The notes below the pieces were generated by a model. The model did no database searches, was not told the origin of the DNA, and was given only the letters and a program-made list of their open reading frames with translations. A stretch of 64,000 nucleotides of DNA from a virus: positions 1-64,000 of the IMG/VR virus record IMGVR_UViG_3300008954_003554; one strand, written 5' to 3'. Of this stretch, positions 13,441-60,614 are shown piece after piece (positions within the stretch are counted from its first letter, which is position 1; every line of letters starts with the position of its first letter). The position numbers were made by a program, and so were the translations under genes.

Positions 13441-13635
13441 ATGAAAATTAATTGTCGACATCTTAGAGACTATAACATATCGTGGATTGATCACCACAAG
13501 AGGGCTGTAAAGTGGGCATGGACTATGCAAAAAGCTACGATATGCCTGACTATTCACTCAATTCTCCCCTGGGCTTTTGAATCTTACGCATCCGCTAGAG
13601 TTCACGAGATATCGAAAGAAATGAGAGTACAGTGA
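13441..13635 (+). CDS. Small membrane protein, DUF6356-like
   Basis: 64 residues. HHKRAVKWAWTMQKATICLTIHSILPWAFESYASARVHEIS resembles the DUF6356 pattern (His/Pro-containing single membrane helix, S...I..L). A weak ribosome-binding site precedes it. It overlaps the start of the tagged gene at 13632 by 4 nt (GTGA). Confidence 0.55.
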   Translation: MKINCRHLRDYNISWIDHHKRAVKWAWTMQKATICLTIHSILPWAFESYASARVHEISKEMRVQ

Positions 13636-14222
13636 GAGTTACATACAGACAGCTAAGACAAATTATTAGAGAGGCTCTAGAGAAGCCTCTCCCCACGGGT
13701 GCGTGGGAGTTTACAGAAGAAGAAAGAGAAGATCTCCGGTCCATCGGTGATTGGGTTCTTCCTGCAGAGTATGAAAATATCCAAATTGATATGAAGGATA
13801 GTGAGATTCCCAAGGTTAAGAAAAAAATAATATCAGCCCTAGAGCTTCTTTCTAAAAAAGCCAGGCCGGAATTTGAGATAGTTCGAAATAATCTAAAAAA
13901 GATAACGTCTGGTGAAAAAAGCGGGATCGACATAAGAAACAAAAAATTCTCTGTATCTGATGTTTCTATTTTAGATCAGACGACCGAGTGGCTTGCAAGC
14001 ATAATTTATCATGATGCATATCATGTTGAGCAAGGTGAGAAGGGCTGGCATAAAAAAGATAGAGAGACACCTGCAAATCTTAAGCAGCTAGATCTCCTAA
14101 GAAAGCTCGGAGCTGACAATGAAATTGCCCATCTCGCGGCTGTTATAAAAGCAGGCGACCACTCAGACCTTGATGGAGATGGAGACTTTGATATGGACGA
14201 TTATAATTTAAGGACTTATTAA
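13632..14222 (+). CDS. Tagged zincin-like protein with C-terminal EF-hand loop
   Basis: 196 residues from GTG 13632. The N-terminal tag is MRVTYRQLRQIIREALEKPLP. Mid-protein SIIYHDAYHVEQGEKG has an H-x-x-x-H arrangement on a helix, suggesting a zincin-like site, although the Glu of HExxH is replaced (HDAYH). A DLDGDGDFDMDDY calcium loop lies near the C-terminus. First member of the long tagged cluster. Confidence 0.7.
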   Translation: MRVTYRQLRQIIREALEKPLPTGAWEFTEEEREDLRSIGDWVLPAEYENIQIDMKDSEIPKVKKKIISALELLSKKARPEFEIVRNNLKKITSGEKSGIDIRNKKFSVSDVSILDQTTEWLASIIYHDAYHVEQGEKGWHKKDRETPANLKQLDLLRKLGADNEIAHLAAVIKAGDHSDLDGDGDFDMDDYNLRTY

Positions 14223-14223
14223 A

Positions 14224-14982
14224 ATGAAAATCACACGTAGACAATTAAGACAGATCATCAAGGAAGAGCTAAGCAGGCTAGATGAGAGTATGAGCGTGGA
14301 CACCATGGAGGCTCTTGAAAATGCTGTAAAGAGCGGCAACAGGGAAGAACTTAATCGTGTCTTAAAGATTGCGTATGAGGAAGGAATGCGCTCTTACTCT
14401 CCGGACCAAAGAGTCATAGGAATCCCTGGCAAGACAGGGGATCGACCTGTGGATCCTGATCCACACGCTGAGGTTGTCAACACACTTGTATCTCTTGTGA
14501 AAAGCATGCAAGATGACACAGACAGTGATCGTGTCGAGAAGCTAGACCCTGATCTTCTGAAAGGCGCGTATGTATCTTCAAAAGAAGATCGGGAGGCTAT
14601 GAAAGATTACATTGCTAAGTTAAAGGCGAAGAAAAAGTCTATGGACACCGACGGTGACGGTGCTCTCGACGCAGATGAACTGAGAGCTATCGCTGACGAT
14701 CTAGAAGGAGAAGGCCAGGATCCTCCTAAAAGCTTTAGTGTTCCATACAGAAGCTCCGGCTATCAAGGTAGGCGTATCATCTCACGTGACAGGGCGTGGC
14801 TTGAGTTTGTACCCAAGGGAAACCCGTCCCGGACTCCGGAAGACATGTTTAGAGAAGTTACCCTACTCAAGAACTGGGATCCAGAGATTCAAAAGGCTCT
14901 AGACGCCTCCGATCATGACCTCTCGAGAGGCGATATAGATCAGTACGACGTTTACAGCGTGTACGCAACGACAACAGGATAA
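14224..14982 (+). CDS. Tagged EF-hand protein
   Basis: 252 residues. A textbook tag, MKITRRQLRQIIKEEL, then SRLDE gives an LDE site. At about residue 141 there is a canonical 12-residue EF-hand loop, DTDGDGALDADE, followed by LRAIADDLEG. That LRxIADDLE continuation recurs in the proteins at 17396 and 18526. The C-terminal half has no recognised family. Starts right after the upstream stop. Confidence 0.78.
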   Translation: MKITRRQLRQIIKEELSRLDESMSVDTMEALENAVKSGNREELNRVLKIAYEEGMRSYSPDQRVIGIPGKTGDRPVDPDPHAEVVNTLVSLVKSMQDDTDSDRVEKLDPDLLKGAYVSSKEDREAMKDYIAKLKAKKKSMDTDGDGALDADELRAIADDLEGEGQDPPKSFSVPYRSSGYQGRRIISRDRAWLEFVPKGNPSRTPEDMFREVTLLKNWDPEIQKALDASDHDLSRGDIDQYDVYSVYATTTG

Positions 14983-14985
14983 ACA

Positions 14986-15327
14986 GTGAAAATCACACGC
15001 AGACAACTAAAGAGAATCATTAAGGAGGAACTGGATTTACTAAATGAAGGGCAGTCTCTTGGACTTACAGTTCGTCAAGACTTAGAAGACTTTGACCAGC
15101 TGGGAGATCCCAGTAGGGACGTTTTCTCAAATGCTCACTCCGAGATGTCAGAGCTTATTTGTGATCTTCAGAGTAAAAACGATGAAGCCGGATTAAAAGA
15201 TGTCAGGTCCGACTGGGAACATACTATCAATACACACCATAACAGGGGAGCCGGTGAGCTTAGTGATGCAACAAGACAAGCAGCACACGAAGCACTTGAT
15301 ATCCTCTTTTCTACGCAGTGCGGATAA
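14986..15327 (+). CDS. Tagged helical protein
   Basis: 113 residues from GTG 14986. Tag MKITRRQLKRIIKEELDLLNE with LNE before GQSLG. The cargo is predicted mostly helical and polar (DLEDFDQLGDPSRDV, MSELICDLQSKND). Not recognised. Confidence 0.75.
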   Translation: MKITRRQLKRIIKEELDLLNEGQSLGLTVRQDLEDFDQLGDPSRDVFSNAHSEMSELICDLQSKNDEAGLKDVRSDWEHTINTHHNRGAGELSDATRQAAHEALDILFSTQCG

Positions 15328-15339
15328 AAGGAGACTAAA

Positions 15340-16044
15340 ATGAAAATCACACGCAAACAATTAAGACAGATTATTGAGGAGACGGCGGGTCCCGAAGGGG
15401 CTGATGATTTTGCAATACCCCAGCTTTCAGCCCATGATTTAAAGCTTAGGGCAAGTACAGACCATGTTCTCGATCTTCGTCGTAAGATGCAAAACGTGAA
15501 ATGGATGAGTCCAGAGTGGAAACGGATGCATGATGAGGTAAAAGAAATACAAGCTTCATACACAGATGTTGAGACAACCGCTACACACCCACTTGATGTG
15601 GATGGCGATGGTAAGTTGACAATATCTGAAATGAAAATCACACGTGGACAATTAAGACAAATCATCAAAGAGGAAAGATCCAAACTTCTCTCAGAAGGTG
15701 TCACTAGCGAAGCAGCAAGAATAGGAAGAGAGTTGAACAACATACCAAGTCAGGCAATGCGCGCTGTTGGCGGTGATTTTTCAAAGCTTAATGACGCAGT
15801 TAATAAAGCTCAAGAAAAAATATTTGTTGACATCTTTCTGTCATACATGGATCAGAATCTTGCAAAGATGGATCAGCGGTATGGTCTCTCACCGGGTCAA
15901 GCGCATGACGTTGCAGACAGGGCAAGGGCTAGATATCAGGATATGCTTAGCAATATGGGAGCCATCTCTACAGAGATTGGAGAGGCGATCAAGCCATTCA
16001 TGAGGCTACTTGGGAAGTATTCTGAGGACATGGAGTTGGGATAG
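15340..16044 (+). CDS. Double-tag fusion protein with EF-hand joint
   Basis: 234 residues, GGAGACTAAA before the ATG. Tag 1 at residues 1-15 heads a ~70-residue cargo. The EF-hand loop DVDGDGKLTISE then leads straight into a second complete tag, MKITRGQLRQIIKEE, at about residue 98, with its own cargo (LLSEG...). The joint I-S-E/M fits an [LI]xE cleavage site. The same joint occurs at the end of the gene at 26259. It looks like two tagged genes fused in frame. Confidence 0.8.
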   Translation: MKITRKQLRQIIEETAGPEGADDFAIPQLSAHDLKLRASTDHVLDLRRKMQNVKWMSPEWKRMHDEVKEIQASYTDVETTATHPLDVDGDGKLTISEMKITRGQLRQIIKEERSKLLSEGVTSEAARIGRELNNIPSQAMRAVGGDFSKLNDAVNKAQEKIFVDIFLSYMDQNLAKMDQRYGLSPGQAHDVADRARARYQDMLSNMGAISTEIGEAIKPFMRLLGKYSEDMELG

Positions 16045-16045
16045 A

Positions 16046-16426
16046 ATGAAAATCACACGCAGACAATTAAGACAGATCATACAAGAAGAGCTGGGAAGAC
16101 TTAATGAAGGTCCTAAACCAGAAGGGTACATAAAAACTGTTAATGTCGGAAAAGATGGAAAAACAATAGATGACGTTCGTAATGGCTTAAAAAATCCAGC
16201 CTACGTCGACAGACTATTCATCCACGCGACATCTAAGCGCCCATCAGGACAATTCTTTATTGCTTCGCTAGAGTCGCTGGGCGGCATAGAACATCATCAC
16301 AGCCAGGAAGGAAAGGATGAGCTCAAGAAACTTGCTAAAGAGAAGGGCCTCGCCGGCAAGATCATGCACCTTGACAGTGTTCTTATTGATGGAAAACCAT
16401 CAGTAGTAGTAATTGAGTTATTGTAG
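16046..16426 (+). CDS. Tagged protein of unknown function
   Basis: 126 residues from ATG 16046, selected over an in-frame upstream ATG (16010) because it gives the tag MKITRRQLRQIIQEEL and starts just past the upstream stop. An LNE site precedes GPKPEG. The cargo has alternating strands and a His-rich GIEHHHSQEGKDELKKLAKE segment. Not recognised. Confidence 0.77.
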   Translation: MKITRRQLRQIIQEELGRLNEGPKPEGYIKTVNVGKDGKTIDDVRNGLKNPAYVDRLFIHATSKRPSGQFFIASLESLGGIEHHHSQEGKDELKKLAKEKGLAGKIMHLDSVLIDGKPSVVVIELL

Positions 16427-16434
16427 GATAAAAA

Positions 16435-17391
16435 ATGAAAATCACACGCAAACATTTAATAAGGATAATCAAGGAAGAGCTTCTAAGAGAGCAGTATCAA
16501 CCTCATGAGCCCGGGATTAGAACTGATGAAGACGGTCTAGCCAGGTCTTACGGAAGAAGGGTTGCTGACAACGTTTATATGCATGATAATGTGGACAGAG
16601 ACGGAAGTAAATATTTCGAAAGCCCCGGTGCGATGACCGGTGTGCCAGACGCTGTGCTTATCCTTACGGGATCCGGCACAGAAAGAATAAGGCCTGAGCC
16701 CACGCCTAAGCCTGAGCCCATGCCCGAGCCGGCATCTGATCCGTCGCCCACACCTGAGCCTGAACCTGAGACTCAGACCCAATACCAGCCTCGGTCATGG
16801 ACCGACGACGAATCCGTTACTAAGAGCTCTATTAAGTCTCGATGGTTTCCAAAGTTCGCCAAAACTGATACAACTTCATCACCAAACGGAAGCTATGTAG
16901 ATCTCGTTGATAATGATGGTGACGGGCCATGGTACGTCACACCTGGAATGGGAGGATTAGATCAGAGTCACTTCGACAGAGATGGATGGGTCTGGTGGAA
17001 GATGACCAAGAAGGGAATATATTACACACCCAAAAAGCCAGGAGGAAGAGTTGGAGACTGGGATGACAGCGGAGATTCAGATATTGCATATGCCCCTATG
17101 GAAATTAGTGCTGATCTACCTGGGGGATACAGTATCAAAAATTTTAACCTTGATAACATGTTCTATAGATTTGGCGGGAAGACCGGACTTGGCTTAGAGG
17201 GTGATATCAATCTCGTCGGATCGGGCCTTCGACCGGACGTCAGTAGGTCTAATAGGCAAATGAATCAGCTTACTGACTGGGGTACCTTGCGGACATTTCT
17301 TAGCAGACTCTTTAGAACCGGTTCATCATCATTGACATTAAATATTGACACAACTATAGGGGACGTCCCCATAACTCTTTCAGTAGGATAG
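16435..17391 (+). CDS. Tagged protein with Pro-Glu linker and beta C-terminal domain
   Basis: 318 residues. Tag MKITRKHLIRIIKEELLRE, then QYQPHEP (the LREQYQP motif). A PEPxP-type linker spans about residues 85-120. The C-terminal half is beta-rich and ends VPITLSVG, almost the same as the end of the protein at 20741 (DVTITLSVA), so the two share a C-terminal domain. An aspartate pair (DNDGDGPWYV) may bind calcium. Role unknown. Confidence 0.77.
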   Translation: MKITRKHLIRIIKEELLREQYQPHEPGIRTDEDGLARSYGRRVADNVYMHDNVDRDGSKYFESPGAMTGVPDAVLILTGSGTERIRPEPTPKPEPMPEPASDPSPTPEPEPETQTQYQPRSWTDDESVTKSSIKSRWFPKFAKTDTTSSPNGSYVDLVDNDGDGPWYVTPGMGGLDQSHFDRDGWVWWKMTKKGIYYTPKKPGGRVGDWDDSGDSDIAYAPMEISADLPGGYSIKNFNLDNMFYRFGGKTGLGLEGDINLVGSGLRPDVSRSNRQMNQLTDWGTLRTFLSRLFRTGSSSLTLNIDTTIGDVPITLSVG

Positions 17392-17395: not shown

Positions 17396-17935
17396 ATGAA
17401 AATCACTCGTAGACATCTAAGACAGATTATCAGAGAAGAATTAATTAGAGAGGCAGATCCGGATACCGATGCTGATGATGCAGCTGAGCTGAGAGATATT
17501 GCAGATGATCTTGAAACACAAAGCTTGGACCCGGTCGTCGATAGCTGGATTAAATTTGTTGATAGAAACTCTGATATAAAGGACACTCTGCTTTCCGCGT
17601 GGGAAAAGATGACTACAGGTACCTCTGATCCCTGGGAGGTAGCTAGTGAAGTCGGCGAGGCTATTGGCCTCCCGTGGATCGAAAAGGGCCAGTTCTATTT
17701 GCCTGACAGGGGTAGTAAAGAAGAGGGTCTGTCTAGCGTTCGAACGGGAGTTTTATGGCATGCAAAGAAGATGAGACCTGGGAAGAAGTATCTCAATAGA
17801 GGTGAGATTGAACAAGAGCTTGAGAGGCGAAAATCTGATCGAGACACAGCCAGATCAGCAATGAAACCTGCGCCCTTAAGTAAAAAACCCTATGGGGGCG
17901 GTTCTCGTTATAGACCCTGGGGTCGGTCAACCTAA
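17396..17935 (+). CDS. Tagged protein with DPDTDADD acidic motif
   Basis: 179 residues. Tag MKITRRHLRQIIREELIRE, then an acidic DPDTDADDAAELRDIADDLE motif shared with the protein at 18526. Near the C-terminus IEQELERRKSDRD is encoded by a 34-nt stretch identical to one in the gene at 22699. The tail is basic and Pro-rich. Function unknown. Confidence 0.75.
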   Translation: MKITRRHLRQIIREELIREADPDTDADDAAELRDIADDLETQSLDPVVDSWIKFVDRNSDIKDTLLSAWEKMTTGTSDPWEVASEVGEAIGLPWIEKGQFYLPDRGSKEEGLSSVRTGVLWHAKKMRPGKKYLNRGEIEQELERRKSDRDTARSAMKPAPLSKKPYGGGSRYRPWGRST

Positions 17936-18525: not shown

Positions 18526-20292
18526 ATGAATCTAAAACTTTTAAGAAACATTATTAAGGAAGAAATGCTTCGTGAGCAAACTCCGAGAGAGAGGAAGCCC
18601 ACGAGCTGGTGGCTAAGGCAAGAAGTTCCTGAGACTCCTGCCTCCTCAGACACTCCCTGGCGGGCACTCTCTGACGATAGCTTTCCTATGCTTACTAAAA
18701 TATCTACGGGTAGCAGCAATGAGCTAATTAGATCTGGTGCGAGTAGTGAAAGCATTACTGAGTTGCAGAAAGCGCTAGTATCTCTTGGGTTTGATATTGG
18801 TAGATCTGGACCTAACAGCGACGGTGTCGACGGGAAGTGGGGCCGGAAAACCAGAAATGCTCTAATTGATTTTCAGACTGAGATGGTTGCGGACCACCCT
18901 GAGACATACACCACCGACGATATTGACGGTGTCGCAGGAGAAAAAACAGCCGCTGTCCTGCTAACATCACTCCTAGATGTACCCCCATATGATTCAGCCT
19001 CTCCAGAACCTGGGCCTGAAGATGATGATATCAGTCTTGACCTTGACTCTATTCAGAATCTTGGGAGAGTGCTGACTCCCGAAGAAGTTCCGCTGGAGCA
19101 GGTCGGTGATCAGGAGCCGTTTAGAATGGATACATCAGATGAGCCAGACGATTGGGATGAGGATCTTGCTGATGACTGGGAACATCTTCAGAATAGAACA
19201 AAAGGTTTTATTTCTGCAATGCCCGCTACTATCGCCTCAATGGGACATGCTAGAAATGTGGACGACGCAAAAGATCAGTCTGAGGACATCCTGGGTAGCG
19301 CATATAGAGATGCCTGGGACCAATCTGTAGCTGTTTATAACTTCCCATATTTGTGGGATCTTAGAGTTAGAAGACAAAACCCAGAACTTCAACCGGGAGA
19401 TTATTACAAGTTCGGACAAGCCGAGGATGAGGGAAGACTGGAGATGATGCAGCAAGCTCTCAGAGATCTGGGTGCCAGCGGTGACACTAAAGGTGTATAC
19501 AACAATACATCTTCAAGCCAATATATACAGGTGTTTGACGATTGGGAAGCTTTGACTGGAGGTGATCTCGATAATCATCGAAACAATCGACAAGCAGCCT
19601 ATCGACTTCTTTATGATAGGATTCACGATACCTATGCTAACGGACACGGAGACGGCAAAGCAATTGATGTACCCCTTTTTCGAGGTGCAAGAGACGTTCT
19701 AGATAAGGCAGAGCAAATTGCTGGCGTTAATCACAAGACGCACAAAGAAGCCGACCACTGGCACGTAACAATTTCTGAAAATGAGGATTTAAAAATGGAA
19801 AAAGAAAAAAGAAAAATGACACTCCTGGAAAGAAACATTCAGGCATTTCTTGTGGAGTCAGACCCAGATACGGATGCTGATGATTCCGATGAGCTTAGAG
19901 ATATTGCAGATGACCTTGAAGGATCTAAAAGTTACTCTATGTCTGCACAGTTGCAAGACGTTATGGGGCCCGATGAGCTTGAGGCATACGGGGCGAGTTA
20001 CGATGAAGGAGGAGATCCTACAGATGATGACCCGCGAAACGACCTGGCAGATAACCTTAATAACGCTGTATACGCTGCAAAAGTTTCCAAAATGGATCTA
20101 AAGAATATAATTGATGTTCTTGCTGAAATTCTTGTTACGTCACAGGGATATGATGAAGTTGCTGTTCTTGACGCATTTAGTAGTTATGTCAGAGCTGCAG
20201 ACGAGGGTGCCCACAGGTGGATGATGAGGGAAAGAAGACTATTTGAAGCTTCACGAGGAAGATGGCAGAAACTTTCTGGTCTCACAGAGTAG
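18526..20292 (+). CDS. Large tagged peptidoglycan-binding + M15-like peptidase
   Basis: 588 residues from ATG 18526 (ACAGGGAC upstream). The start MNLKLLRNIIKEEMLRE is a shortened tag with an LRE site. A PG_binding_1-type domain follows (ITELQKALVSLGFDIGRSG, DGVDGKWGRKTRNALIDFQ). Near residues 380-420, GHGDGKAIDVPLF and ADHWHVTI give an M15-like zinc ligand set. A second tag-like helix (TLLERNIQAFLVESDPDTD) then leads to the DPDTDADD...IADDLE motif and a C-terminal helical module. Likely a virion-carried or late wall hydrolase. Confidence 0.76.
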   Translation: MNLKLLRNIIKEEMLREQTPRERKPTSWWLRQEVPETPASSDTPWRALSDDSFPMLTKISTGSSNELIRSGASSESITELQKALVSLGFDIGRSGPNSDGVDGKWGRKTRNALIDFQTEMVADHPETYTTDDIDGVAGEKTAAVLLTSLLDVPPYDSASPEPGPEDDDISLDLDSIQNLGRVLTPEEVPLEQVGDQEPFRMDTSDEPDDWDEDLADDWEHLQNRTKGFISAMPATIASMGHARNVDDAKDQSEDILGSAYRDAWDQSVAVYNFPYLWDLRVRRQNPELQPGDYYKFGQAEDEGRLEMMQQALRDLGASGDTKGVYNNTSSSQYIQVFDDWEALTGGDLDNHRNNRQAAYRLLYDRIHDTYANGHGDGKAIDVPLFRGARDVLDKAEQIAGVNHKTHKEADHWHVTISENEDLKMEKEKRKMTLLERNIQAFLVESDPDTDADDSDELRDIADDLEGSKSYSMSAQLQDVMGPDELEAYGASYDEGGDPTDDDPRNDLADNLNNAVYAAKVSKMDLKNIIDVLAEILVTSQGYDEVAVLDAFSSYVRAADEGAHRWMMRERRLFEASRGRWQKLSGLTE

Positions 20293-20303: not shown

Positions 20304-20723
20304 ATGAAAATTTCCGAGAAAAATCTTAGAAAGCTGGTTTTATTGGAAATCCTAAAAGAACAGTATCAGCCCCGGGACGACGACCCCGAAGAAAGCCCTG
20401 AAAGCCCTGAAGGATCAGAAGAAAATGAATCCTACCAGGTTAATAAAAGAGTTGAGAAGGCAATAAAAAAAGCTTCTACTTCCACCTTTAGGAATAGAAA
20501 ATTTCGATCTCTTCTTAATAAGTTGCAGACCGTTACGGTTCCTCTTTACGGCAACAAGACGATAGATTTTAAGCTAGACCCGAAGCAGCCGACCAGCCTT
20601 CATTTTACTATTAAGAATATTGTAACAAGCCCAAAACTCCAAAATATCAACCTAACAGGAAAGGTAGATGATCTGATGAAACGTGATCCCAAGGTTTCAT
20701 TGAGAATCTCTGGACGATTTTAG
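20304..20723 (+). CDS. Tagged protein with LKEQYQPR motif
   Basis: 139 residues from ATG 20304 (GGGAGAGAG upstream). Tag MKISEKNLRKLVLLEILKE, then QYQPRDDDPEE and an acidic linker with a short SPEGSEE-type repeat. The C-terminal 80 residues are strand-rich (TVTVPLYGNKTIDFKL, VSLRISGRF). Not recognised. Confidence 0.74.
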   Translation: MKISEKNLRKLVLLEILKEQYQPRDDDPEESPESPEGSEENESYQVNKRVEKAIKKASTSTFRNRKFRSLLNKLQTVTVPLYGNKTIDFKLDPKQPTSLHFTIKNIVTSPKLQNINLTGKVDDLMKRDPKVSLRISGRF

Positions 20724-20740: not shown

Positions 20741-21319
20741 ATGAAAGTCACACGCAAACAATTAAGAAATCTTGTCAGGAAGACCCTCAAGTCTGATCTG
20801 AGAGAGCAGTATGAACCCAGAGAGCCTAGTCTTCCGAATCCGGAAGATCATGACTTTACAGGTCCGATCGGAGATGGAAATATTCTCAGGAAGTGGATCT
20901 GCATGAGCGGAATCCCTGGGGGTGAGGGAGAGGAACAATGGGGGTGGATGCGAATTCAACCTAACAAGAAAATTAAATTTGGAAATTGGGGTGATCAAAG
21001 TGTAGTCTCGATTTCCCAACTCGAGATAGAATCTAGGGTTGATAAGTCTTTTAACGAGGATGAGATTAGGGTTTATGGATTTAAGAGGGGTCGGAACGGT
21101 AAGCTCTACGTTTCTGGAGAAGTCAACATGGGTCGACTTCTTGGAGGCTGGCAGGGTGTAGAGCCCGGAACCTGGAAAAGGGTTGATGCTCCCGATGCGA
21201 ATTCTGTGATTAGAAGCATACTCACCCAATTATACCGACATGAGGAAGCTTCTGTTGAACTCGAAAGACACGATGTTCCTGTGGTAGGGGATGTCACAAT
21301 AACACTTTCTGTGGCATAA
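20741..21319 (+). CDS. Tagged protein sharing a C-terminal domain with the gene at 16435
   Basis: 192 residues. Tag MKVTRKQLRNLVRKTLKSDLRE, then QYEPREPS. The tag has an insertion, and the LRE site is kept. The final ~60 residues, ending VVGDVTITLSVA, match the end of the 16435 protein. AAGGAAAATT precedes the start. Confidence 0.74.
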   Translation: MKVTRKQLRNLVRKTLKSDLREQYEPREPSLPNPEDHDFTGPIGDGNILRKWICMSGIPGGEGEEQWGWMRIQPNKKIKFGNWGDQSVVSISQLEIESRVDKSFNEDEIRVYGFKRGRNGKLYVSGEVNMGRLLGGWQGVEPGTWKRVDAPDANSVIRSILTQLYRHEEASVELERHDVPVVGDVTITLSVA

Positions 21320-21396: not shown

Positions 21397-21717
21397 ATGA
21401 AAATATCAAAAAAATATCTTAGAAGACTCATCAAGGAAGAGCTCACACACCTATCAGAGGGAGTCGTACGTCTTAGATTTCTCCACAAACAGAAGATTGA
21501 TGACTATGTGTGGCGGGCAACCTCCGATAGCGGCGGCGGTGGCCAGCATGAAATCACAACACCTGATGGTGAAGAATGGGTGAAGGAGGACAGTGAGCTC
21601 GTAAAGGTTCACCGCAGCGGTGATTATAATCCAGCGGATGACATAGATGAGATCCACGCTGCCATGAAGAGTCACCGTGACACAGGCGAGTTTCCTGAGG
21701 GATGGACTAAACGATGA
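21397..21717 (+). CDS. Tagged small protein
   Basis: 106 residues from ATG 21397. Tag MKISKKYLRRLIKEELTHLSE, LSE before GVVRL. The cargo is a small basic/beta fold (RLRFLHKQKIDDYVWRATSD, GGGGQHEITTPDGEEW). ATGA overlap with the next gene. Confidence 0.75.
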   Translation: MKISKKYLRRLIKEELTHLSEGVVRLRFLHKQKIDDYVWRATSDSGGGGQHEITTPDGEEWVKEDSELVKVHRSGDYNPADDIDEIHAAMKSHRDTGEFPEGWTKR

Positions 21718-22079
21718 AGATAACACGTAGACAATTAAGAAGAATCATACTTGAGGAGAAGCAGAGGTTGATGCTTGAGTCTAGCGCTGGTGAGAAAAGA
21801 CAGTCAGAGATGCGCCAGTTTGCAGAGAGCAGAGGCGGAGCTAGAGTCAGGAGTGAGGGCAACAAGATTAAAGCATCTTCCGAGGCGATTCAGCGACTGG
21901 CAACAGAGCAGACCGGTCTCATGAGGGACACACTCTATAGGATGTCTGAGTTTGTTAGGAAGGTCGGTGAGTCATATGGAAGCATCGGCTTGCTAGATGA
22001 GGGTGGTTCGGTCGGAGACACCCTGCCATCGATCAAAGAGCTGAAAGCCTTAGCGAAGTCAATGAAAAAACTTGAATAG
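21714..22079 (+). CDS. Tagged helical protein
   Basis: 121 residues. Tag MKITRRQLRRIILEEKQRLMLE (an MLE site). The cargo is rich in Arg/Glu/Ser and predicted helical (RDTLYRMSEFVRKVGESYG; ELKALAKSMKKLE). Overlaps the upstream stop by 4 nt. Not recognised. Confidence 0.74.
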   Translation: MKITRRQLRRIILEEKQRLMLESSAGEKRQSEMRQFAESRGGARVRSEGNKIKASSEAIQRLATEQTGLMRDTLYRMSEFVRKVGESYGSIGLLDEGGSVGDTLPSIKELKALAKSMKKLE

Positions 22080-25936: not shown

Positions 25937-25980
25937 AACACATCATTTCATAATAGTTATAATATGGACCGGAGCCGCCA

Positions 25981-28496: not shown

Positions 28497-28547
28497 TAAT
28501 AGAGTAGCTTAATAGTTATATAGGAGCTGCAAGGGAGAGCACAAGAC

Positions 28548-49280: not shown

Positions 49281-49340
49281 TTTTTAAAATCAGCATCTAA
49301 GTGATAGTTATAAATGTGACTAACGCAAATAGGAGAAAAA

Positions 49341-51611: not shown

Positions 51612-52043
51612 ATGAAAATTTCAATGAATCAACTTAAGAGCATCATCAGAGAGGAATCATCTCGAATGAGAGAGCAGCACCAACCCAGGTCAGGAGGAGG
51701 AAAAACCGCGGCTGAGTACATCTCCGGAGGACATGAGGGCGTATTTATGGAGGTAATGGGAGCTCTCGCTGCATGTGATAAAATATGGGATTGGGTCGAA
51801 GGGCAGGTAAGCAACTATGCAAGAATTAATCAGGGTCCAGTGTCTACTAGCAGCGGTACAGATTATCATGACATTTTAGTTGTTGGGGCAGTCTGCAGTG
51901 ATTACTTTGACGGTAGTTCAGGTGCAAAAACTTTTGAGGAGCTTGAAGCGGACAATAAGATTGACGGCTCCTGGAGAAAAGCAGCAGCTAGCGATGGGTT
52001 TAGCCTGATGTGGGCCAACGGAATTAAACAGAAGAATTGTTAA
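51612..52043 (+). CDS. Tagged protein, paralogue of 49341
   Basis: 143 residues from ATG 51612 (AGGAAAAAA). Tag MKISMNQLKSIIREESSRMRE, then QHQPRSGG. The domain AEYISGGHEGVFMEVMGAL...CSDYFDGSSGAKTFEELE...IDGSW aligns with the 49341 protein. An in-frame ATG at 51549 lies inside the gene before. Confidence 0.76.
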   Translation: MKISMNQLKSIIREESSRMREQHQPRSGGGKTAAEYISGGHEGVFMEVMGALAACDKIWDWVEGQVSNYARINQGPVSTSSGTDYHDILVVGAVCSDYFDGSSGAKTFEELEADNKIDGSWRKAAASDGFSLMWANGIKQKNC

Positions 52044-52847: not shown

Positions 52848-53192
52848 ATGAGTTCTATACTCTTGCCAAACCAACCCTTTAAACTTGTTATCAGCATGGA
52901 GGGGGTCAACCCAACAGCAGATGGTTTTGCAACATTTTCATGGTTTGGGAAAAGAATGAAACTATATGAAAAAGTTGATCTTGATACCTACCCGTCTATG
53001 AAAGACTTTAAAGGGAATAGTTTTTATTTTGATATTGGGACGGTAGGGACCGTCGTTAGACTTGTAGGTCGACCAGACAAGATAAAAAAAGATCCAATCT
53101 GGTGCAAATTTGATCTATATGAAGTTCTAATTGGAGGAAAAATTATTCAGATGTTTAGACAAAACATGGAACCAATAAGTTATCATATATAG
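52848..53192 (+). CDS. Hypothetical 114-residue beta-type protein
   Basis: MSSILLPNQPFKLVISMEGVNPTADGFATFSWFGKRMKLYEKVD...IGTVGTVVRLVGRPDKI, strand-rich. The IGTVGTVVRLVGRPDK and KFDLYEVLIGG strands resemble a larger SH3-like fold. No good ribosome site. Not recognised. Confidence 0.6.
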   Translation: MSSILLPNQPFKLVISMEGVNPTADGFATFSWFGKRMKLYEKVDLDTYPSMKDFKGNSFYFDIGTVGTVVRLVGRPDKIKKDPIWCKFDLYEVLIGGKIIQMFRQNMEPISYHI

Positions 53193-53215
53193 TTATATAA
53201 GCTAAGAGGCACTTA

Positions 53216-54022
53216 ATGAAAATTACAGCGCGCGAAATTAGAAAAATGATCCTAGAAGAATCTCAAAAGCTAGAGAGAGAGAAAAGAGATCAAGACGATG
53301 AAATCCTAAGAGAAGCCTGGTTAGATCTTAGAGATCGAGGATACACAGATTCAGAAGTGATTGATGGTTTGCTTTCTAGTGCAGGCGTTATGATTGAGTC
53401 AAGATTTCTCAACGAAGAAGATGCTGCCGGAGAAAATGGAGGCGCGGGTTTCTTTTCCACTATTGCGACTGGGGCAGGAGATGTCCTTAAAGGTAAAATT
53501 TCACAGATTGTAATTGATACAATTCTATCTGCATTCCAGGTAGATCTTCGAACACCTTTTGGAAGAATGGTCAGAGCCTTAGCAATCAACGTCGGTGAAA
53601 ACTTTGAGTATGCGAGGTGGAGAGAATATTTCGGAGGGGAAAGTAGTTGTGGTCTTTGGGCAGAAACAATTTCACAAGCTGTTGGAGAAACTGTGATCTT
53701 AGAGCCGATAATGTCAGCAATTTTAGTGCAGCTCGGACTTCGAGGAGCGGGAGGGGCAGCAACGCCGACGCGACCTCCCGATATTGCTGCACCAGACGCA
53801 GGTATTGGGGGAGTGCTCGCGGGAACTTTAATTAGAACCATAGAAGAGGCAATAAACGAAGCCCTTGTGGGACCCGTTTCCGATGCAATTGCTGACAGGT
53901 TGTGTAGAATTAGAGTTAGGGATCTGGTTGGAGATACTTTTGGACTAGGCTCTATAGCCCGCAGACTAACTGGGTCTGACAGGCCTGAAGGATATTACTC
54001 AGCACTATCCGGTGCAACTTGA
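53216..54022 (+). CDS. Tagged protein with hydrophobic central region
   Basis: 268 residues, AAGAGGCACTTA before the ATG. Tag MKITAREIRKMILEESQKLERE. A second short helix ends SRFLNEEDAAG (LNE site). Residues ~80-230 are Gly/Ala/Ile-rich with amphipathic or membrane-active segments (FFSTIATGAGDVLKGKISQIVIDTIL; ILEPIMSAILVQLGLRGAGG; GIGGVLAGTLIRTIEEAI). It could insert into a membrane. Function unknown. Confidence 0.73.
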   Translation: MKITAREIRKMILEESQKLEREKRDQDDEILREAWLDLRDRGYTDSEVIDGLLSSAGVMIESRFLNEEDAAGENGGAGFFSTIATGAGDVLKGKISQIVIDTILSAFQVDLRTPFGRMVRALAINVGENFEYARWREYFGGESSCGLWAETISQAVGETVILEPIMSAILVQLGLRGAGGAATPTRPPDIAAPDAGIGGVLAGTLIRTIEEAINEALVGPVSDAIADRLCRIRVRDLVGDTFGLGSIARRLTGSDRPEGYYSALSGAT

Positions 54023-54023: not shown

Positions 54024-54677
54024 ATGGTGGTAGACAAAGCTGCTCTAAGAGAAATCATAAGATCTGTAATTTTTGAAGATCTCGGTAAGCACAAAACTAG
54101 AATGTTCAAGGGTACGGGTGCATCTCATAGCTACAATACAAAGTCCGGACCTAGCATGCTTGGAGATCTAGATCCTTTTGACGTTGAGGACGAGACACCT
54201 GACAGTCCAGTTGAAAAAATAAAAACTAGTCGAGCCTTTAAAGAAGATATAAAAAACATGTTTGAAAATAAATCTGATCAGTTCAGATCTGTCTACGACT
54301 CTAAGATAAATTACAAAGTAAGGCCTGAAAAATATAGAACCACGCGAGATGCCCAAGGTGTTTATACTGTCATGCCATACAAGTCAGACTTTATTAATTA
54401 TTTTAGTTTTTCTTCTCCCGGCCAAGCAAGAAAATCTGCACAAAAAATATATGAAATTTTTACAGACTATAGGGATAGGAATGATTTTGTCGGAATGGAC
54501 ATGGCTAGAAAATATTTACAGCTAGGGTACAAGCTTTCAAAAAGATTTGAAAAATATCCCTCCGGAAAAAGGTCCCTAAGGAGCGAATCGGGAGATAGAG
54601 ATATGTCGCTATCTGCACTAGAATTTAAAAAAAAATTAGTTAAAGTAATGAAAGACAAAGAGTATAATCCTTTTTAG
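54024..54677 (+). CDS. Protein with divergent tag
   Basis: 217 residues from ATG 54024; GTG 54012 is an alternative. MVVDKAALREIIRSVIFEDLGKH keeps the tag helix pattern. The cargo is polar with KTRMFKGTGASHSYNTKSGP and many Lys. The GSPGQARKSAQKIYEIFTDYRDRNDF-like C-terminal part is helical. Not recognised. Confidence 0.68.
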   Translation: MVVDKAALREIIRSVIFEDLGKHKTRMFKGTGASHSYNTKSGPSMLGDLDPFDVEDETPDSPVEKIKTSRAFKEDIKNMFENKSDQFRSVYDSKINYKVRPEKYRTTRDAQGVYTVMPYKSDFINYFSFSSPGQARKSAQKIYEIFTDYRDRNDFVGMDMARKYLQLGYKLSKRFEKYPSGKRSLRSESGDRDMSLSALEFKKKLVKVMKDKEYNPF

Positions 54678-54748: not shown

Positions 54749-56881
54749 TTGGAATTTACTGAAGACAAACTTCGAAAGCTTGTTAGAGAAGAGGCAGCCA
54801 AAAAGCTTGTCTCTGAGAAAAAAACTGAAGTAAAAAAGTTTTTAACTCTGCAGGAGCAGCGGAGTACAGCACAGGTTCGTAGTGATAATCAGCGGGGATA
54901 TCTTGGAGGCTCAGTTGTGGGGGCTTTTCAAGGACAGCTTGGAATAACAAGTCGCATCTTCACTCCGGATTTTAAGGTAGAGTTTGCAGCCAACTACATG
55001 GATGGAAGAAAGGGGAGGGCTACGCGTAGCACCAACGAAGATGAGATCGATAGTGCACTACGTGATTTTCAACTTGAAGTTGAAGAACACAAGCTAGGAC
55101 CCTACACACATCGTGCCTGGGAGATCTGGGTCGGAGATAACTACACATCCGAACAAAGAAACAAAGCAACTCAGGTGTACAATGATCCAAGGTGGGGTGC
55201 AGAGCTAGCAAAAATATTTGATGATAGTGATGAAACTGTGCCTATTCAGGCACCATCAGCTGGATCAGTAGCCCACACCTGGGAGGTTGCAGGAAGAGAG
55301 CTAGGCTGGACAATAGGAACCCGATCAAGACTTCAAGGATATTCGAGATCTACCACGTATCATGTTGAAAATGCAAGGGACTTTATGCAGGCAATCATAA
55401 GTAACAGCAATTTTGGTGGCTTCAATCCTAGATTAGTTGCCCTGGCCCTGGCAGAAACTGACGAGGCAGCAGAAAGGGCGCGTCGCCGAACCGATGAGGA
55501 GCCTGATGAAGCTGATCGATCTCGTCAGGTAGACATTAGCACGATCGAAGGATCAGACGTCGCTGCTGTTGTACCTCAACGGCAAAATGAGCCCCAGACA
55601 GACTATGGTGACCGACTTGATGCTTCGGCTGCCTATCTTAACGGTGCACCCCTCCAGTTCGGACTTTCAGACATTCCCCTTGAGGAAAATCCAGCAGAAA
55701 TTGAGCTGGGTGGTCTCTATGATTATGGCGGGCAGTGGCAAAGCAACGTTCCAACACAAGTTTATTTTCTTATCACCCCTGGTAACCTACCCGGCCCCAG
55801 GGGTCAGAAAAAAATGCACCCAATCATTACAAAAGGAGCACTAAATACCCTTTCCCAGCAGATGGCAGAGGGATTTTATCACGGTGCTTTTTCAGGGATA
55901 GGTGCCAACGTTGGAGCGGGATCAATAGAGTCGTGGATCCAACTAATCAAATGGCTATCAGGTACAGGTAACAGATGCGGCGGAGGAGTCTTTGACGGAA
56001 CAGGTGGAGGAAATCTATCAGGAAGGGTCGGATATAGGGATGGCGGAGGGGTTTATGATGCCCTAAGTTATCTTTTGGCCCAATTCAAATCAAATAGTTC
56101 AGCAACCATTGATAGCGATTTTGCCAACATGACCCTTGTCGATGCTGCACTTCAGTCAGAATACACAGATGACAGTGATGACTGGGGCGACGACGATGAT
56201 GTAAATAAAAGAAGGGATTATCTTGGACGATTAACAAGGGCTTTTGTTCAGAGACCCGGGGGTAGAAGGAGAGCAAATACTGATACAGTTCTACAAAACC
56301 CTTGGGTTGTAAGACTAGCTAAAGAAAGAACAGATGAAATAGCAAGAGAGATTAACCCCAGGATAGTAAGAGAGTCAGCATCTGAAACATTTTCCAGAAA
56401 GGAAATCTCATCATTATCTTCAATTATCACCGGGGCAATACAGGAGTCATTCGGCGTTGAAAACGTGTCTAGGAGAACCGGTCGATCACAAAGAAGGGCC
56501 CCGGTGAGACCAGTTGCTGAACCCCCTGCAGCGCCACCGACCCGAAGAGGAACGGTGTTTTCAATTGGAATGTCCAATGACCCGAATTCAATTATTAAAA
56601 TCCAAAGATTCTTCAATACCGCAAACACGGGTGTGTGGAGTGGCGACGATGACCGATCATTTCTTTCATATTTTGAACTTTACTACTCTGGTAGGCTTAA
56701 GCCTGGACTGAGTGGAGTACTGCAAACCGGGGGTTGGGATGCAATGGCTCAGTACCTTGCCGTAAATCAGATCGGAGGCGGATATAATAGTGGGCCTAGT
56801 GGCCTATTAAGCTTTATCACCACCCCGGGGTATTTCTCTAGTCAGCGAAGAAGAATACGAAATTTTGAAAGAGATGAGTGA
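54749..56881 (+). CDS. Largest tagged protein, 710 residues
   Basis: TTG 54749 with TGGGAGTGTATT. Tag MEFTEDKLRKLVREEAAKKLVSE. An N-terminal region of mixed helix and strand reaches about residue 250. A Gly-rich middle follows (GTGNRCGGGVFDGTGGGNLSGRVGYRDGGG), then an acidic DDSDDWGDDDDVNKR segment. Near the end, SIIKIQRFFNTANTGVWSGDDDRSFLSYFELYYSG resembles a peptidoglycan-binding-1-type repeat. Function unknown; size and late-type promoter fit a virion or injected protein. Confidence 0.72.
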   Translation: MEFTEDKLRKLVREEAAKKLVSEKKTEVKKFLTLQEQRSTAQVRSDNQRGYLGGSVVGAFQGQLGITSRIFTPDFKVEFAANYMDGRKGRATRSTNEDEIDSALRDFQLEVEEHKLGPYTHRAWEIWVGDNYTSEQRNKATQVYNDPRWGAELAKIFDDSDETVPIQAPSAGSVAHTWEVAGRELGWTIGTRSRLQGYSRSTTYHVENARDFMQAIISNSNFGGFNPRLVALALAETDEAAERARRRTDEEPDEADRSRQVDISTIEGSDVAAVVPQRQNEPQTDYGDRLDASAAYLNGAPLQFGLSDIPLEENPAEIELGGLYDYGGQWQSNVPTQVYFLITPGNLPGPRGQKKMHPIITKGALNTLSQQMAEGFYHGAFSGIGANVGAGSIESWIQLIKWLSGTGNRCGGGVFDGTGGGNLSGRVGYRDGGGVYDALSYLLAQFKSNSSATIDSDFANMTLVDAALQSEYTDDSDDWGDDDDVNKRRDYLGRLTRAFVQRPGGRRRANTDTVLQNPWVVRLAKERTDEIAREINPRIVRESASETFSRKEISSLSSIITGAIQESFGVENVSRRTGRSQRRAPVRPVAEPPAAPPTRRGTVFSIGMSNDPNSIIKIQRFFNTANTGVWSGDDDRSFLSYFELYYSGRLKPGLSGVLQTGGWDAMAQYLAVNQIGGGYNSGPSGLLSFITTPGYFSSQRRRIRNFERDE

Positions 56882-56887: not shown

Positions 56888-58069
56888 GTGAAATATTTAA
56901 AAAATATTATTCTGACAGAGAGGGATCTAAGAAGTATTATCTCTGATAATATACTTTCTGAAAAAAGATTTTATTCTTACGACGGGCCCAGGCGTGCAGG
57001 ATTTCAAACTTCTGGAGAAGCGGCGTGTAGTGTTGCAGGCGCAGTAGGTACCAGAATATCGAGTGACAAAGCTAGGATAAAGGCTGGTATCATACTCGGA
57101 GTCGGGGTCGATGACGATGACCCGATAGCCAAAGAAACCTTTGTATCTGATCCGATTAGAAAGAGTGAGTCAGCGGCTGCAATAGGGAGCGATTCAGAGG
57201 TAGACGCTGATAGGATGTGGAAGATGACTATTGGGTATGCTGACGGAGATGGGCCTCAGGCTAACAAACACATGCTAGCACTTTTCATCCTACCAAAACC
57301 CGATGAGATTACAATCAGGGCTGCAGAAACTGCGGAAGACGATGAGGGAGATGAGGTTGTGTTGACCCCGGCGGTAACTACTCCCGGAAGCACTTTAAGA
57401 TTTATTCTAAGGTACGCAAATAGTGACGGTTCTCCCATCACCGACGACAGCGGGCACATAGCAGTTGATCCACACACGGGGGCAGTGACTGACAACGATG
57501 ATAAGTGGTTTAAATCTGTTGTTCCAATAGCTTTTGAGTGGATGGCACGGTATGTTAATAATGTTGAACTGTGTGATGAAAGGACCCGGGCAAGCATTAG
57601 TCGCAGGTCTGGAAGAACTGGGGGGACTACGGGCGTTTATGCTGCAGGAGCCCTCGCGTTGTCATCGTGGTGGGACGGAGACAGGGATACAGGGCTGCCC
57701 GTAAGAGCAGCTTCAGATATTGAAGCCCCCGCCCGACGGGTTCTTGTTGTGTCCAGAATGACTAGCACTGTGAACGAAAAGCTCGAACAAAAAGCTTCAG
57801 GCCTGAGGCGCTGGAGGGTTGATGTAACAGAGAGTGGAACTCATGTCTATCTTATTCCAACGGGTACCTTCCAGAAAGACAACTCTTATGCAACATCAGC
57901 CCGTGAAGATTACAGCACCAACAAAGCAAGAGTTGGGAGTGCCGATGCGGCCATGCGTAAATTTGGATCCCACGGAAATTTTAAAACATTTTTACAAATT
58001 TTAACAAAAGTTTGTGAAGAGCTGGGGGAAAATGATCCAGGCTCGACTCTTATTGATATGTCAAGATAG
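56888..58069 (+). CDS. Protein with divergent tag, 393 residues
   Basis: GTG 56888. MKYLKNIILTERDLRSIISDNILSE carries the tag helix shifted by a short leader, ending in an LSE site before KRFYSYDG. The cargo is alpha/beta with LRRWRVDVTESGTHVYLIPTG and a Cys in VELCDERTRASISRR. 6 nt from the 710-residue gene, so co-expressed. Not recognised. Confidence 0.68.
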   Translation: MKYLKNIILTERDLRSIISDNILSEKRFYSYDGPRRAGFQTSGEAACSVAGAVGTRISSDKARIKAGIILGVGVDDDDPIAKETFVSDPIRKSESAAAIGSDSEVDADRMWKMTIGYADGDGPQANKHMLALFILPKPDEITIRAAETAEDDEGDEVVLTPAVTTPGSTLRFILRYANSDGSPITDDSGHIAVDPHTGAVTDNDDKWFKSVVPIAFEWMARYVNNVELCDERTRASISRRSGRTGGTTGVYAAGALALSSWWDGDRDTGLPVRAASDIEAPARRVLVVSRMTSTVNEKLEQKASGLRRWRVDVTESGTHVYLIPTGTFQKDNSYATSAREDYSTNKARVGSADAAMRKFGSHGNFKTFLQILTKVCEELGENDPGSTLIDMSR

Positions 58070-58765: not shown

Positions 58766-59032
58766 ATGACAGATCAAATATTAATAAAGATAAAAATGTT
58801 GGAACAGGGAATATTGCCTGCTAGAACGGGACGGGATTTAGTAAAAATGCTAGAGTCAATCCCAAAAGATGAAAGAAGAGAATTTAAAAGAAAATTTAGA
58901 AAAGCTTGGAGAAAAATTGCCAAAAAAGATCCTGACCTTAAGTTTCCAATGGGACTAGGAAACAAAAAGCCCACCAGAGAGCAAAAGATACAAAGAGTTT
59001 CAAGAGTTTATATGAATGCCGCGAAAAAGTAA
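58766..59032 (+). CDS. Hypothetical 88-residue very basic protein
   Basis: TDQILIKIKMLEQGILPARTGRDLVKMLESIPKDERREFKRKFRKAWRKIAKK; helical and Lys/Arg-rich, probably nucleic-acid binding. No clear ribosome site. The 58498-58765 gap before it holds a promoter-like TGTAAA-N17-TACTAT at 58518 and a TATTTAATT at 58544, then only a 7-codon frame after AGGAG (58599). Confidence 0.6.
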   Translation: MTDQILIKIKMLEQGILPARTGRDLVKMLESIPKDERREFKRKFRKAWRKIAKKDPDLKFPMGLGNKKPTREQKIQRVSRVYMNAAKK

Positions 59033-59285
59033 AAGAAAAAGTAAAATTAAAAAAGAAGAACCCGGGATCATCGAGCACAAGGGTTTTACTGTAGGTCAAA
59101 AAATATGGTCAAAATATCTGACTGGTAAAATTATATCAGGTGTAATTACCAGATTTATTCTTGCAGAGGGTCAAGAAGAGGCAATAGAGATAATTACCGA
59201 AGACATGGGGTATAGAACAGTCAGGCTTTCTGAGTCTAGTGAGAATAGAATTATAAAGAGAAGAAATAAAGGTTTTCAGTTGTAG
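59016..59285 (+). CDS. SH3/KOW-like small basic protein
   Basis: 89 residues overlapping the gene before by 17 nt. A basic leader (PRKSKRKSKIKKEE), then FTVGQKIWSKYLTGKIISGVITRFI and a YRTVRLSES strand, a larger relative of the MKVGDLV fold. Its stop overlaps the protease gene on the other strand by 10 nt. Confidence 0.62.
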   Translation: MPRKSKRKSKIKKEEPGIIEHKGFTVGQKIWSKYLTGKIISGVITRFILAEGQEEAIEIITEDMGYRTVRLSESSENRIIKRRNKGFQL

Positions 59286-60055
59286 TCTACGCTGTTTCTA
59301 TCAAGAAAATCCCTAATATTTTCTACTCCGACACCCATTCCGACAGCTGGAAATCTTGGATCCGCCATCTGTATCATTCCTATAACTTCAAATCTAGAGT
59401 TGAGAATAAGGCTCCCAGAGCTTCCAAATATTGCAGGAGTGGTGAAGAAGCAAATGCCGCTCAAATCACATCCAGAAAAATTTCCATCGAAGTGGGGGGC
59501 AGCACCTTCTGATCGAATAGAGAGCGGGGCTGATATTGTATAGACGTCGCTTCCTATTTCCGGCATAGAGCTAGCAATTCTAATTTTTCTAAATGCTGGC
59601 ATGTCTGACTTTATTAGACATAGATCATTCTCTTCGTCTATGTCAACAATCTCTGCGGACCAGATTGCTCCATAGAAGTCTGTTACCGTTAGCTCTGTTT
59701 TCATTTGAAACAACATGTTAAGCAAGTATGTATCCGGAGAGTCTGACTCTGGGTTGTCACAAAAATGACCTGCAGTTAAAATAAGGGACTCGCCTGTCTC
59801 TAGTTCAGAAAATATCATCCCGGAGGCAGAGCTACCTTCGACTACTACACTATCACAGTCCCCTGTATCAGATTCACAATCATCATATATGATAGATTTT
59901 GATATATTTAAACTAACAAAATTTTCTGTTGGGAACTTTGTTATTTTCGGGGGCGTCTTGTCTATAACAAATGACACCATCGAAACTATAAGAGATAAAA
60001 ATAAACATAGAATTAAAATTCTTAGAAGTTTTTCTTTTAATCCTATGCTTTCCAC
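59276..60055 (-). CDS. Membrane-anchored trypsin-like serine protease
   Basis: 259 residues on the minus strand. An N-terminal helix (LLRILILCLFLSLIVSMVSFVI) acts as a signal anchor. The catalytic triad is visible in order: LILTAGHFCDN (His), DEENDLCLIKSD (Asp), AIFGSSGSLILNS (GxSGS Ser). The fold is that of S1/HtrA-type proteases without a PDZ domain. It likely faces the periplasm. Phage-borne trypsin-like proteases are rare. Confidence 0.8.
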   Translation of the reverse strand: MESIGLKEKLLRILILCLFLSLIVSMVSFVIDKTPPKITKFPTENFVSLNISKSIIYDDCESDTGDCDSVVVEGSSASGMIFSELETGESLILTAGHFCDNPESDSPDTYLLNMLFQMKTELTVTDFYGAIWSAEIVDIDEENDLCLIKSDMPAFRKIRIASSMPEIGSDVYTISAPLSIRSEGAAPHFDGNFSGCDLSGICFFTTPAIFGSSGSLILNSRFEVIGMIQMADPRFPAVGMGVGVENIRDFLDRNSVDYN

Positions 60056-60137
60056 GATATTTATCTCACTTTTAAAATTTTAAATTCTCTGCCATTCTCT
60101 TTTATAGTTTGTCTATCTCTATTAAATATGTATTATC

Positions 60138-60614
60138 ATGAAATTACGAGACGAAAATTTTCTAAGAGACTATATTAGGAACATTATTAGAGAAAGAAAA
60201 TATGATTCTATTTCTTGCGGAATAGTGGTCGTAAAAAAATTTGGAAACAAATGGAAGCCCCTTGCGCTGATTGTCGGCAGCAAGATAGATATTCCCAAAG
60301 GAAGGGTTGAAGATGGCGAAAATACGCTAGAGACTGCGACTAGGGAGACTTATGAAGAGTCGGGAATTTCTGATCTTAATTTTTCCTGGGGAAGGGATTT
60401 CCTTAGGGTTCAAAACATGGTTGTATATCTTGCATCAACAACGCAGGAACCTAAAATAATTCCAAACCCTGTTACCGGTCGAATGGAACATGATTTTTGG
60501 AAGTGGATGGATTGGGAGGATATGATATCAAGAAGTAGTCCCAAGATAAGGCACTCTCTTAGGTGGGCAAAAAGAAAAATTCAGCAAAATGATTTATTGA
60601 CATCAGTTTTTTAA
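60138..60614 (+). CDS. Nudix hydrolase with tag-like N-terminus
   Basis: 158 residues. The Nudix box GRVEDGENTLETATRETYEESGI is complete (G-x5-E-x7-RE-x-x-E-E-x-G). These enzymes split nucleoside diphosphates linked to other groups (capped RNA, dNTPs, ADP-sugars). The start MKLRDENFLRDYIRNIIRE looks like a divergent copy of the shared tag. That would make this the clearest enzyme carrying it. Confidence 0.86.
   Translation: MKLRDENFLRDYIRNIIRERKYDSISCGIVVVKKFGNKWKPLALIVGSKIDIPKGRVEDGENTLETATRETYEESGISDLNFSWGRDFLRVQNMVVYLASTTQEPKIIPNPVTGRMEHDFWKWMDWEDMISRSSPKIRHSLRWAKRKIQQNDLLTSVF

Follow-up and report, generated by a model that had tools for sequence, protein, structure and literature searches.

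The DNA analysed here (hereafter the window) comprises positions 1 to 64,000 of the 83,333-base IMG/VR virus record IMGVR_UViG_3300008954_003554, which is probably a fragment of a phage genome, and 32 of its genes begin with variants of one short N-terminal peptide, the tag, that precedes mostly unrelated cargo proteins. This shared peptide is very probably a capsid-targeting propeptide of the T4 internal-protein type, a reading first put forward in an initial annotation of the window and now supported by related contigs, which carry a prohead protease, a capsid protein with a matching site, and tagged genes in the head module. The genes of the record, including its remaining 19 kb, were called anew for this analysis.

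In the tag, a helix that is short, basic, and amphipathic (MKITRRQLRQIIKEE) precedes an L-x-E that lies 18–23 residues from the start; the tag alone has an isoelectric point (pI) of 10.9, compared with a median of 4.7 for the cargos. As the initial annotation had noted, IKE lies inside the tag itself, at residues 12–14, and it is a possible second protease site. The alignment of 38 tags yielded hits in ten further IMG/VR contigs, including G004 (38 hits; a near-identical sister), G006 (37; 134 kb), G007 (24), G002 (13), and G008 (9; 160 kb). To avoid circularity, a weight matrix of tag residues 2–15 was trained on contigs G006 and G007 only, and all start codons of open reading frames (ORFs) in the record were scanned with it. 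At 18 bits or more, the scan returns 31 ORFs, all on the plus strand, with none on the minus strand and 0.0 in shuffles, and at 10 bits or more it returns 36 ORFs against 0.2 expected. The search beyond the window adds three tagged genes in the rest of the record (68174, 68891, and 70746). The shared N-terminal tag on mostly unrelated proteins is thus confirmed as real, and the earlier estimate of about 35 tagged proteins in the window comes down to the 32 that reach 10 bits. Sixteen rather than 18 genes of the 13632–23231 cluster are tagged, and two start codons of the cluster shift to 18526 and 21714. The Nudix gene at 60138 keeps its NUDIX hit but loses its tag (−0.6 bits), the starts at 54024 (4.1 bits) and 17945 (3.1 bits) are weak, and that at 56888 (8.1 bits) is borderline.

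It is hardly credible that the repeated start is a DNA or RNA element, such as a translation enhancer or a recombination cassette, encoding a functionless peptide. Where tags have the same amino acid, their codons match in 45% of comparisons, against 37% expected from codon usage, a slight excess that favors such an element and suggests that recent copying may account for some of the tags; however, the codons at conserved residues are largely scrambled, the DNA upstream of tagged genes is not conserved, and the tag also stands in frame inside and at the C-terminus of proteins. Because the codons are nearly as mixed as usage predicts and the upstream DNA is unconserved, selection acts on the peptide and not on a recent DNA repeat, an idea that was rejected on the codon scatter. 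That the tagged proteins form a single, ordinary family of paralogues sharing a conserved N-terminal domain is scarcely tenable either. A few cargos are indeed paralogous, such as the families in G011, but in a replicate set, collected from further contigs with a looser DNA pattern (178 new tagged proteins, 74 loci), the 178 proteins form 154 cargo clusters, of which 140 are singletons. Of the record's 32 tagged proteins, 5 have homologues in six relatives, compared with 37 of 76 untagged ones. The paralogous family is refuted as far as sequence goes, and the cargos are hypervariable while the tag is conserved.

The tag is followed by a sharply positioned tripeptide. In the main set of 135 non-redundant tagged proteins from nine contigs, [LI]xE occurs at tag residues 16–30 in 90 proteins, compared with 23.9 ± 4.2 (maximum 38) in 2000 rounds of shuffling each protein's own residues; residues 31–45 of the same proteins contain it in 13 of 135 cases, and untagged genes in 192 of 919. 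The replicate set gives 97 of 178 against 36.4 ± 5.0 in shuffles. The Glu lies at residue 18/19 or 21–23, P3 is Leu in 79 of the 90 sites, and the P1' residue is Gln (19), Ser (16), Ala (16), or Gly (11), these four together accounting for 62 of 90. The motif that had been described as following the tag is thus, in its [LI]xE form, far above shuffled expectation in both sets, and in the window [LIMV]xE is present at residues 17–30 in 23 of the 32 tagged genes. Tagged proteins that do not have [LI]xE might be cut at the tag-internal IKE, or remain uncut.

Family searches found neither a Gp23 capsid protein nor an S77 protease in the 83,333-base record, and no head module belonging to the phage of the window was found; all head evidence is therefore drawn from relatives. 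A prohead protease, which the proposed propeptide system calls for and which is missing from the fragmentary record, does occur in two tag-bearing relatives. The tag-bearing contig G008 encodes an S77 protease of 204 residues (PF03420, E = 1.2e-26; PHROG head maturation protease, 1.3e-55), a Gp23 capsid protein (PF07068, E = 1.8e-65), a scaffold-like protein that is acidic and is encoded at 62705–64156, and, as assigned by reading, a pair resembling terminase and portal. G011 (257 kb) encodes a protease (PF03420, 5e-21), a capsid protein with the site ILKE/A, the slash marking the predicted cut, and many tagged genes, one of which ends in the same ILKE/A. The G011 protease gene (88364–90055; L148:8364-10055) is split by an insert that resembles an intein (LAGLIDADG_3, 3e-9, and a weak hit for intein splicing).

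The capsid protein of G008 and its 79 homologues from other contigs all (80 of 80) have a propeptide ending in ENQAAQ-L-L-R-E or a close variant; 73 have LRE and 7 have LKE, and the next residue is Gln (34), Ala (29), Ser (10), Val (6), or Tyr (1). T4 gp21 cuts after L/I-x-E (PMC9026906), and by analogy L[RK]E in the capsid propeptide is the likely cut site. Ala follows the tag site in 8 of 15 G011 tags, as in the G011 capsid protein, and Gln does so in 17 of 43 tags of G000 and G006 (p = 5e-5). To judge from the sequences, the [LI]xE of the tag and the predicted cleavage site of the capsid protein are the same motif. This agreement also bears on an uncleaved tag, which would target cargo to the prohead and stay on, as encapsulin-like cargo-loading peptides do, with LxE as the helix end only. 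About a third of tagged proteins are without a site, and the helix would end near it, both of which suit an uncleaved tag; however, [LI]xE is sharply positioned, the Gln, Ala, Ser, or Gly after Glu matches the capsid protein, and conservation ends there, which makes retention of the tag unlikely.

A second link to the head comes from the genes beside the protease, which, like the internal and C-terminal tag copies described below, were absent from the initial annotation. When applied to capsid-protein loci, the cargo-trained matrix identifies two small tagged genes immediately downstream of the protease, as in L129 (MKITKTQLKNLVKECLLEVLAE/G). Among loci with both protease and capsid protein, at least one of the first three genes after the protease is tagged in 35 of 36, and two are tagged in 23; at 8 bits or more, the matrix marks 58 of 196 genes between the protease and the capsid protein, compared with 4 of 395 elsewhere in those loci. 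The prohead core of T4 includes gp67, gp68, and the internal proteins (PMC9026906); most simply, the tag on the cargos would imitate the end by which a core protein docks. The tag could instead lead to a non-head structure, such as the tail, the baseplate, a membrane assembly site, or an intracellular compartment, LxE being incidental. A helix that is basic and amphipathic could attach to membranes or to some other scaffold, and the cargo cluster genes lie outside the head module, but the only conserved structural genes with the tag are the two beside the protease, in the head module, and LxE agrees with the capsid-protein site in both motif and P1' residues, so that a destination outside the head is very unlikely.

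The tagged genes also appear to be expressed late. A motif, ATAGTTA[TAC], lies upstream of 18 of 43 tail-sheath/tail-tube genes and of 55 of 2151 others (p = 9e-17), an association that is independent of the tag, and ATA[GTC]TTA[TAC] lies upstream of 22 of the 70 tagged genes that have a leader of their own and of 41 of 511 untagged genes (p = 3e-7), both p-values being optimistic because the motif was found after inspection. In the window's record, ATA[GTC]TTA[TAC] precedes 9 of 15 tagged and 4 of 51 untagged genes, and early sigma70-like sites (TGTGGTATAATA) precede 0 of 15 tagged and 11 of 51 untagged genes. The T4 late box TATAAATA is not used near gene starts.

Extra copies of the tag lie inside or at the C-terminus of proteins encoded at 7110–8645, 15340–16044, 26259–26870, and 70746–73613 of the record, and in G002, G003, G006, G007, G010, and G011, whereas shuffled proteomes contain none. 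Some internal tags come after [LI]xE, and the internally tagged proteins could be fusions of two packaged proteins that are parted in the head by the protease. In two genes (window 15590–15640 and 26775–26820), an EF-hand-like loop DVDGDGKLTISE immediately precedes the internal or C-terminal tag; the role of [LI]xE before the internal tag in 15340 and 26259 is ambiguous, because its Glu belongs to this loop.

The description of the cargos as unrelated largely holds, with few homologues and mostly singleton clusters, but the M15, zincin, and EF-hand labels given to some of them are motif-only or below threshold. The recognizable cargos of the record are a peptidoglycan-binding/endolysin-like protein and, by motif only, M15-like and HExxH proteins, and Pfam and PHROG scans identified few cargo domains apart from the former and DUF4385, which lies on a weakly tag-like gene. 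Cargos in relatives include pentapeptide repeats, a GNAT acetyltransferase, FliG_C, a tagged NUDIX protein, TMEM65, and a zeta-like kinase. A G011 cargo family has invariant R-S-ExE residues, and its model (predicted local distance difference test (pLDDT) 82.8) gives ADP-ribosyltransferases as best, weak Foldseek matches (E 0.02), so that some G011 cargos are probable ADP-ribosyltransferases; T4 Alt is a packaged and injected ADP-ribosyltransferase (PMC5512222, PMC9026906). A further G011 family, YHGT, has a predicted structure at pLDDT 40, which was not used. Arrays of tagged ADP-ribosyltransferase-like and YHGT-motif paralogues, many of them fused to leucine-rich repeats, occupy 180357–187190, 227930–233862, and 253088–256475 of G011.

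The tag, late-type promoters, protease site, and head-protein link together give the capsid-targeting reading support at the level of sequence, and docking on the scaffold, packaging, cleavage, and injection would follow from it in this way. Upon late expression, each cargo would be docked by its tag to the scaffold core as the prohead grows, through the N-terminus that it shares with the two small proteins of the head module encoded next to the protease. Trimming the major capsid protein after L-[RK]-E, the S77 prohead protease would then remove the tag as well, and the freed cargo would lie loose in the head and be ejected with the DNA. A wider proposal, that the tag is a general cargo-loading code of a large uncultured T4-type branch, in which any gene gaining a tag is packaged, each genome encodes approximately 20–40 injected, fast-changing proteins, and internally tagged proteins are head-processed polyproteins, is more tentative and has somewhat less than an even chance of being right.

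Besides the optimism of the promoter statistics, several points weigh against a capsid-targeting propeptide. The record is without head genes, the protease and the capsid protein being known from relatives only, and 45 of the 135 tagged proteins, and nearly half of those in the replicate set, have no clear [LI]xE at residues 16–30; where it is present, the conservation of [LI]xE could reflect its place in the helix and not cleavage. The ADP-ribosyltransferase label rests on conserved residues and a Foldseek E-value no better than 0.02. By eye, in an unscored comparison, the tag has no similarity to the T4 internal-protein signal. The cargos are acidic, with the low median pI given above, whereas the T4 internal proteins are reported to be basic (PMC9026906).

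If the capsid-targeting reading is true, the tag provides a new signal by which proteins can be directed into phage heads, and an N-terminal motif tells where hundreds of unannotated phage proteins are found (inside the virion, from which they are injected) and when they come into play (made late but acting first), most tagged proteins being without a Pfam family. The proteins that T4 injects include anti-restriction proteins and an RNA-polymerase-modifying enzyme. As injected proteins act before phage genes are read, the tag would list candidate host-takeover and anti-defence proteins.

Outside the IMG/VR contigs, the published 484-kb uncultured phage LR756508 has 24 tag hits, and the cultured Flavobacterium phage immuto (NC_055915) has three candidate tagged genes, gp095, gp094, and gp080, and so offers a means of testing the model. 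In genome assemblies of bacteria and archaea there was one tag match, in a Methylococcaceae metagenome-assembled genome, and tblastn against cultured phages gave no match for two large tagged proteins or the head-module tag protein. No earlier description was found in a literature search of open-access papers, bioRxiv excluded, on the tag sequence and metagenomic capsid targeting sequences. Just after the capsid gene region of LR756508.1 (L164, 13784–17493), five proteins have shorter tag-like starts (MRLKEILLE/N, MRLKNVLLKE/Q, MKLKGILKE/A, MADLKEALISE/G, and MIKFKKLLFE/D), which are nearer to the T4 signal in length, and one of these proteins has YRG residues typical of ADP-ribosyltransferases.

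Other repeated starts were also seen. Many very small genes at approximately 29000–46500 of the window start with M(K/R)xGDLV and form a second repeated N-terminal family, untagged, that is abundant in G006 and G011 too. G006 gene 71, G007 gene 31, and G008 gene 125 are orthologues with another common N-terminal peptide (MRFNANRLARLAGL...) that ends in [LV]xE before Gly or Ala. A DUF444 (YeaH)–SpoVR–PrkA kinase-like trio, recognized by reading and not by family search, occupies window positions 60651–65129 (into L008) and recurs in the same order in G011; it is an unusual host-stress set for a phage. The only tRNA of the window is a tRNA-Arg (TCT) at 42324–42400. The tagged genes and late-promoter-like motifs are collected in Table 1.

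Table 1. Tagged genes and late-promoter-like motifs of the window. Gene rows are based on matrix scores from the scan trained on G006 and G007; a slash marks the predicted cut after Glu.
Feature	Position	Strand	Remarks
Tagged gene	4366..5142	+	Tag ends ILLE/D; M15-peptidase-like residues (SxHxxGxAxD ... HWH), motif only, without Pfam hit
Tagged gene	6691..7113	+	32.0 bits
Tagged gene	7110..8645	+	N-terminal tag MKITLAKLENLINEELRALNE/A; second, internal tag at 8184
Tagged gene	13632..14222	+	Matrix
Tagged gene	14224..14982	+	RLDE/S; sub-threshold EF-hand loop
Tagged gene	14986..15327	+	LLNE/G
Tagged gene	15340..16044	+	N-terminal tag; internal tag at 15631 (TISE-MKITRGQLRQIIKEERSKLLSE/G)
Tagged gene	16046..16426	+	RLNE/G
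Tagged gene	16435..17391	+	LLRE/Q
Tagged gene	17396..17935	+	LIRE/A
Tagged gene	18526..20292	+	MLRE/Q; peptidoglycan-binding/endolysin-like domain (PF01471 2.4e-8; PHROG endolysin 2.5e-10)
Tagged gene	20304..20723	+	ILKE/Q
Tagged gene	20741..21319	+	DLRE/Q
Tagged gene	21397..21717	+	HLSE/G
Tagged gene	21714..22079	+	LMLE/S; G006 orthologue retains tag, cargo 91% identical
Tagged gene	22088..22702	+	LLKE/G
Tagged gene	22699..22926	+	Matrix
Tagged gene	22923..23129	+	Matrix
Tagged gene	23231..24295	+	Matrix
Tagged gene	25981..26259	+	KLSE/G
Tagged gene	26259..26870	+	N-terminal tag; C-terminal tag at 26814-26870
Tagged gene	28548..29198	+	ILRE/Q
Tagged gene	47486..47971	+	ALRE/Q
Tagged gene	47980..48528	+	VLRE/Q
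Tagged gene	48598..48867	+	VVNE/G
Tagged gene	49341..49832	+	Matrix
Tagged gene	49853..50176	+	ALRE/D
Tagged gene	50506..50856	+	GLSE/D; start 50506 or 50491
Tagged gene, weaker tag	51059..51586	+	14.1 bits; ALNE/S
Tagged gene	51612..52043	+	RMRE/Q
Tagged gene	53216..54022	+	Matrix
Weakly tag-like start	54024..54677	+	4.1 bits; VIFE/D; DUF4385 domain (3.2e-31)
Tagged gene, weaker tag	54749..56881	+	12.7 bits; LVSE/K
Borderline tag	56888..58069	+	8.1 bits, about six residues in; ILSE/K
Late-promoter-like motif ATAGTTAT	25953..25960	+	Before tagged gene 25981
Late-promoter-like motif ATAGTTAT	28512..28519	+	Before tagged gene 28548
Late-promoter-like motif ATAGTTAT	49304..49311	+	Before tagged gene 49341
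Late-promoter-like motif ATAGTTAT	53189..53196	+	Before tagged gene 53216

Cargo-loading peptides of encapsulins and microcompartments resemble the tag in that unrelated cargo is brought into a protein shell by a short, amphipathic helix at one terminus, but they are not removed by a phage protease, and both the shell and the partner are different. Polyvalent proteins (Iyer et al.) are likewise predicted to enter the host along with the DNA when infection begins and include zincin, DD-peptidase, and ADP-ribosyltransferase domains (PMC5512222); in contrast to the small single cargos with a shared tag described here, they are large, multidomain, and recognized by their domains, and no tagged protein of the window has the two Pfam conflict domains by which a polyvalent protein is identified. 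In phiKZ and SPN3US, a distant relative of gp21 trims head proteins that are ejected with the DNA, cutting behind a short motif whose last residue is Glu, as proposed here, but the eight N-terminal propeptides of SPN3US are mostly 111–254 residues long and are cut after AxE, 42 head proteins are uncleaved, and a common short tag is not reported for that system (PMC10052503).

The closest parallel is the T4 capsid targeting sequence of IPI–IPIII and Alt, which is processed by gp21 and is likewise a short N-terminal propeptide (10–19 residues in T4) on unrelated, variable proteins (PMC9026906, PMC3012670, PMC12373910). A stretch of approximately 10 residues from IPIII is enough for foreign proteins to be packaged, and gp21 removes it (PMC9026906, PMC3012670), and the three internal proteins of T4 compare with at least ten in T-even relatives (PMC12373910). 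The L/I-x-E site and, in the relatives of the window's phage, the gp21-type S77 protease, the Gp23-type capsid protein, and, in one of these relatives, the probable ADP-ribosyltransferase cargos, like Alt, are further likenesses. However, the tag is slightly longer (18–23 residues), the richest contigs encode approximately 20–40 cargos per genome, roughly ten times the three internal proteins of T4, and tags also occur internally and at the C-terminus and form the start of two head-module proteins. Given the different sequence and length of the tag, the number and acidity of the cargos, the internal tags, and the start shared with head proteins, it can be said with high confidence that the tag works like T4 capsid targeting, but no membership of the T-even internal-protein family is claimed for it.

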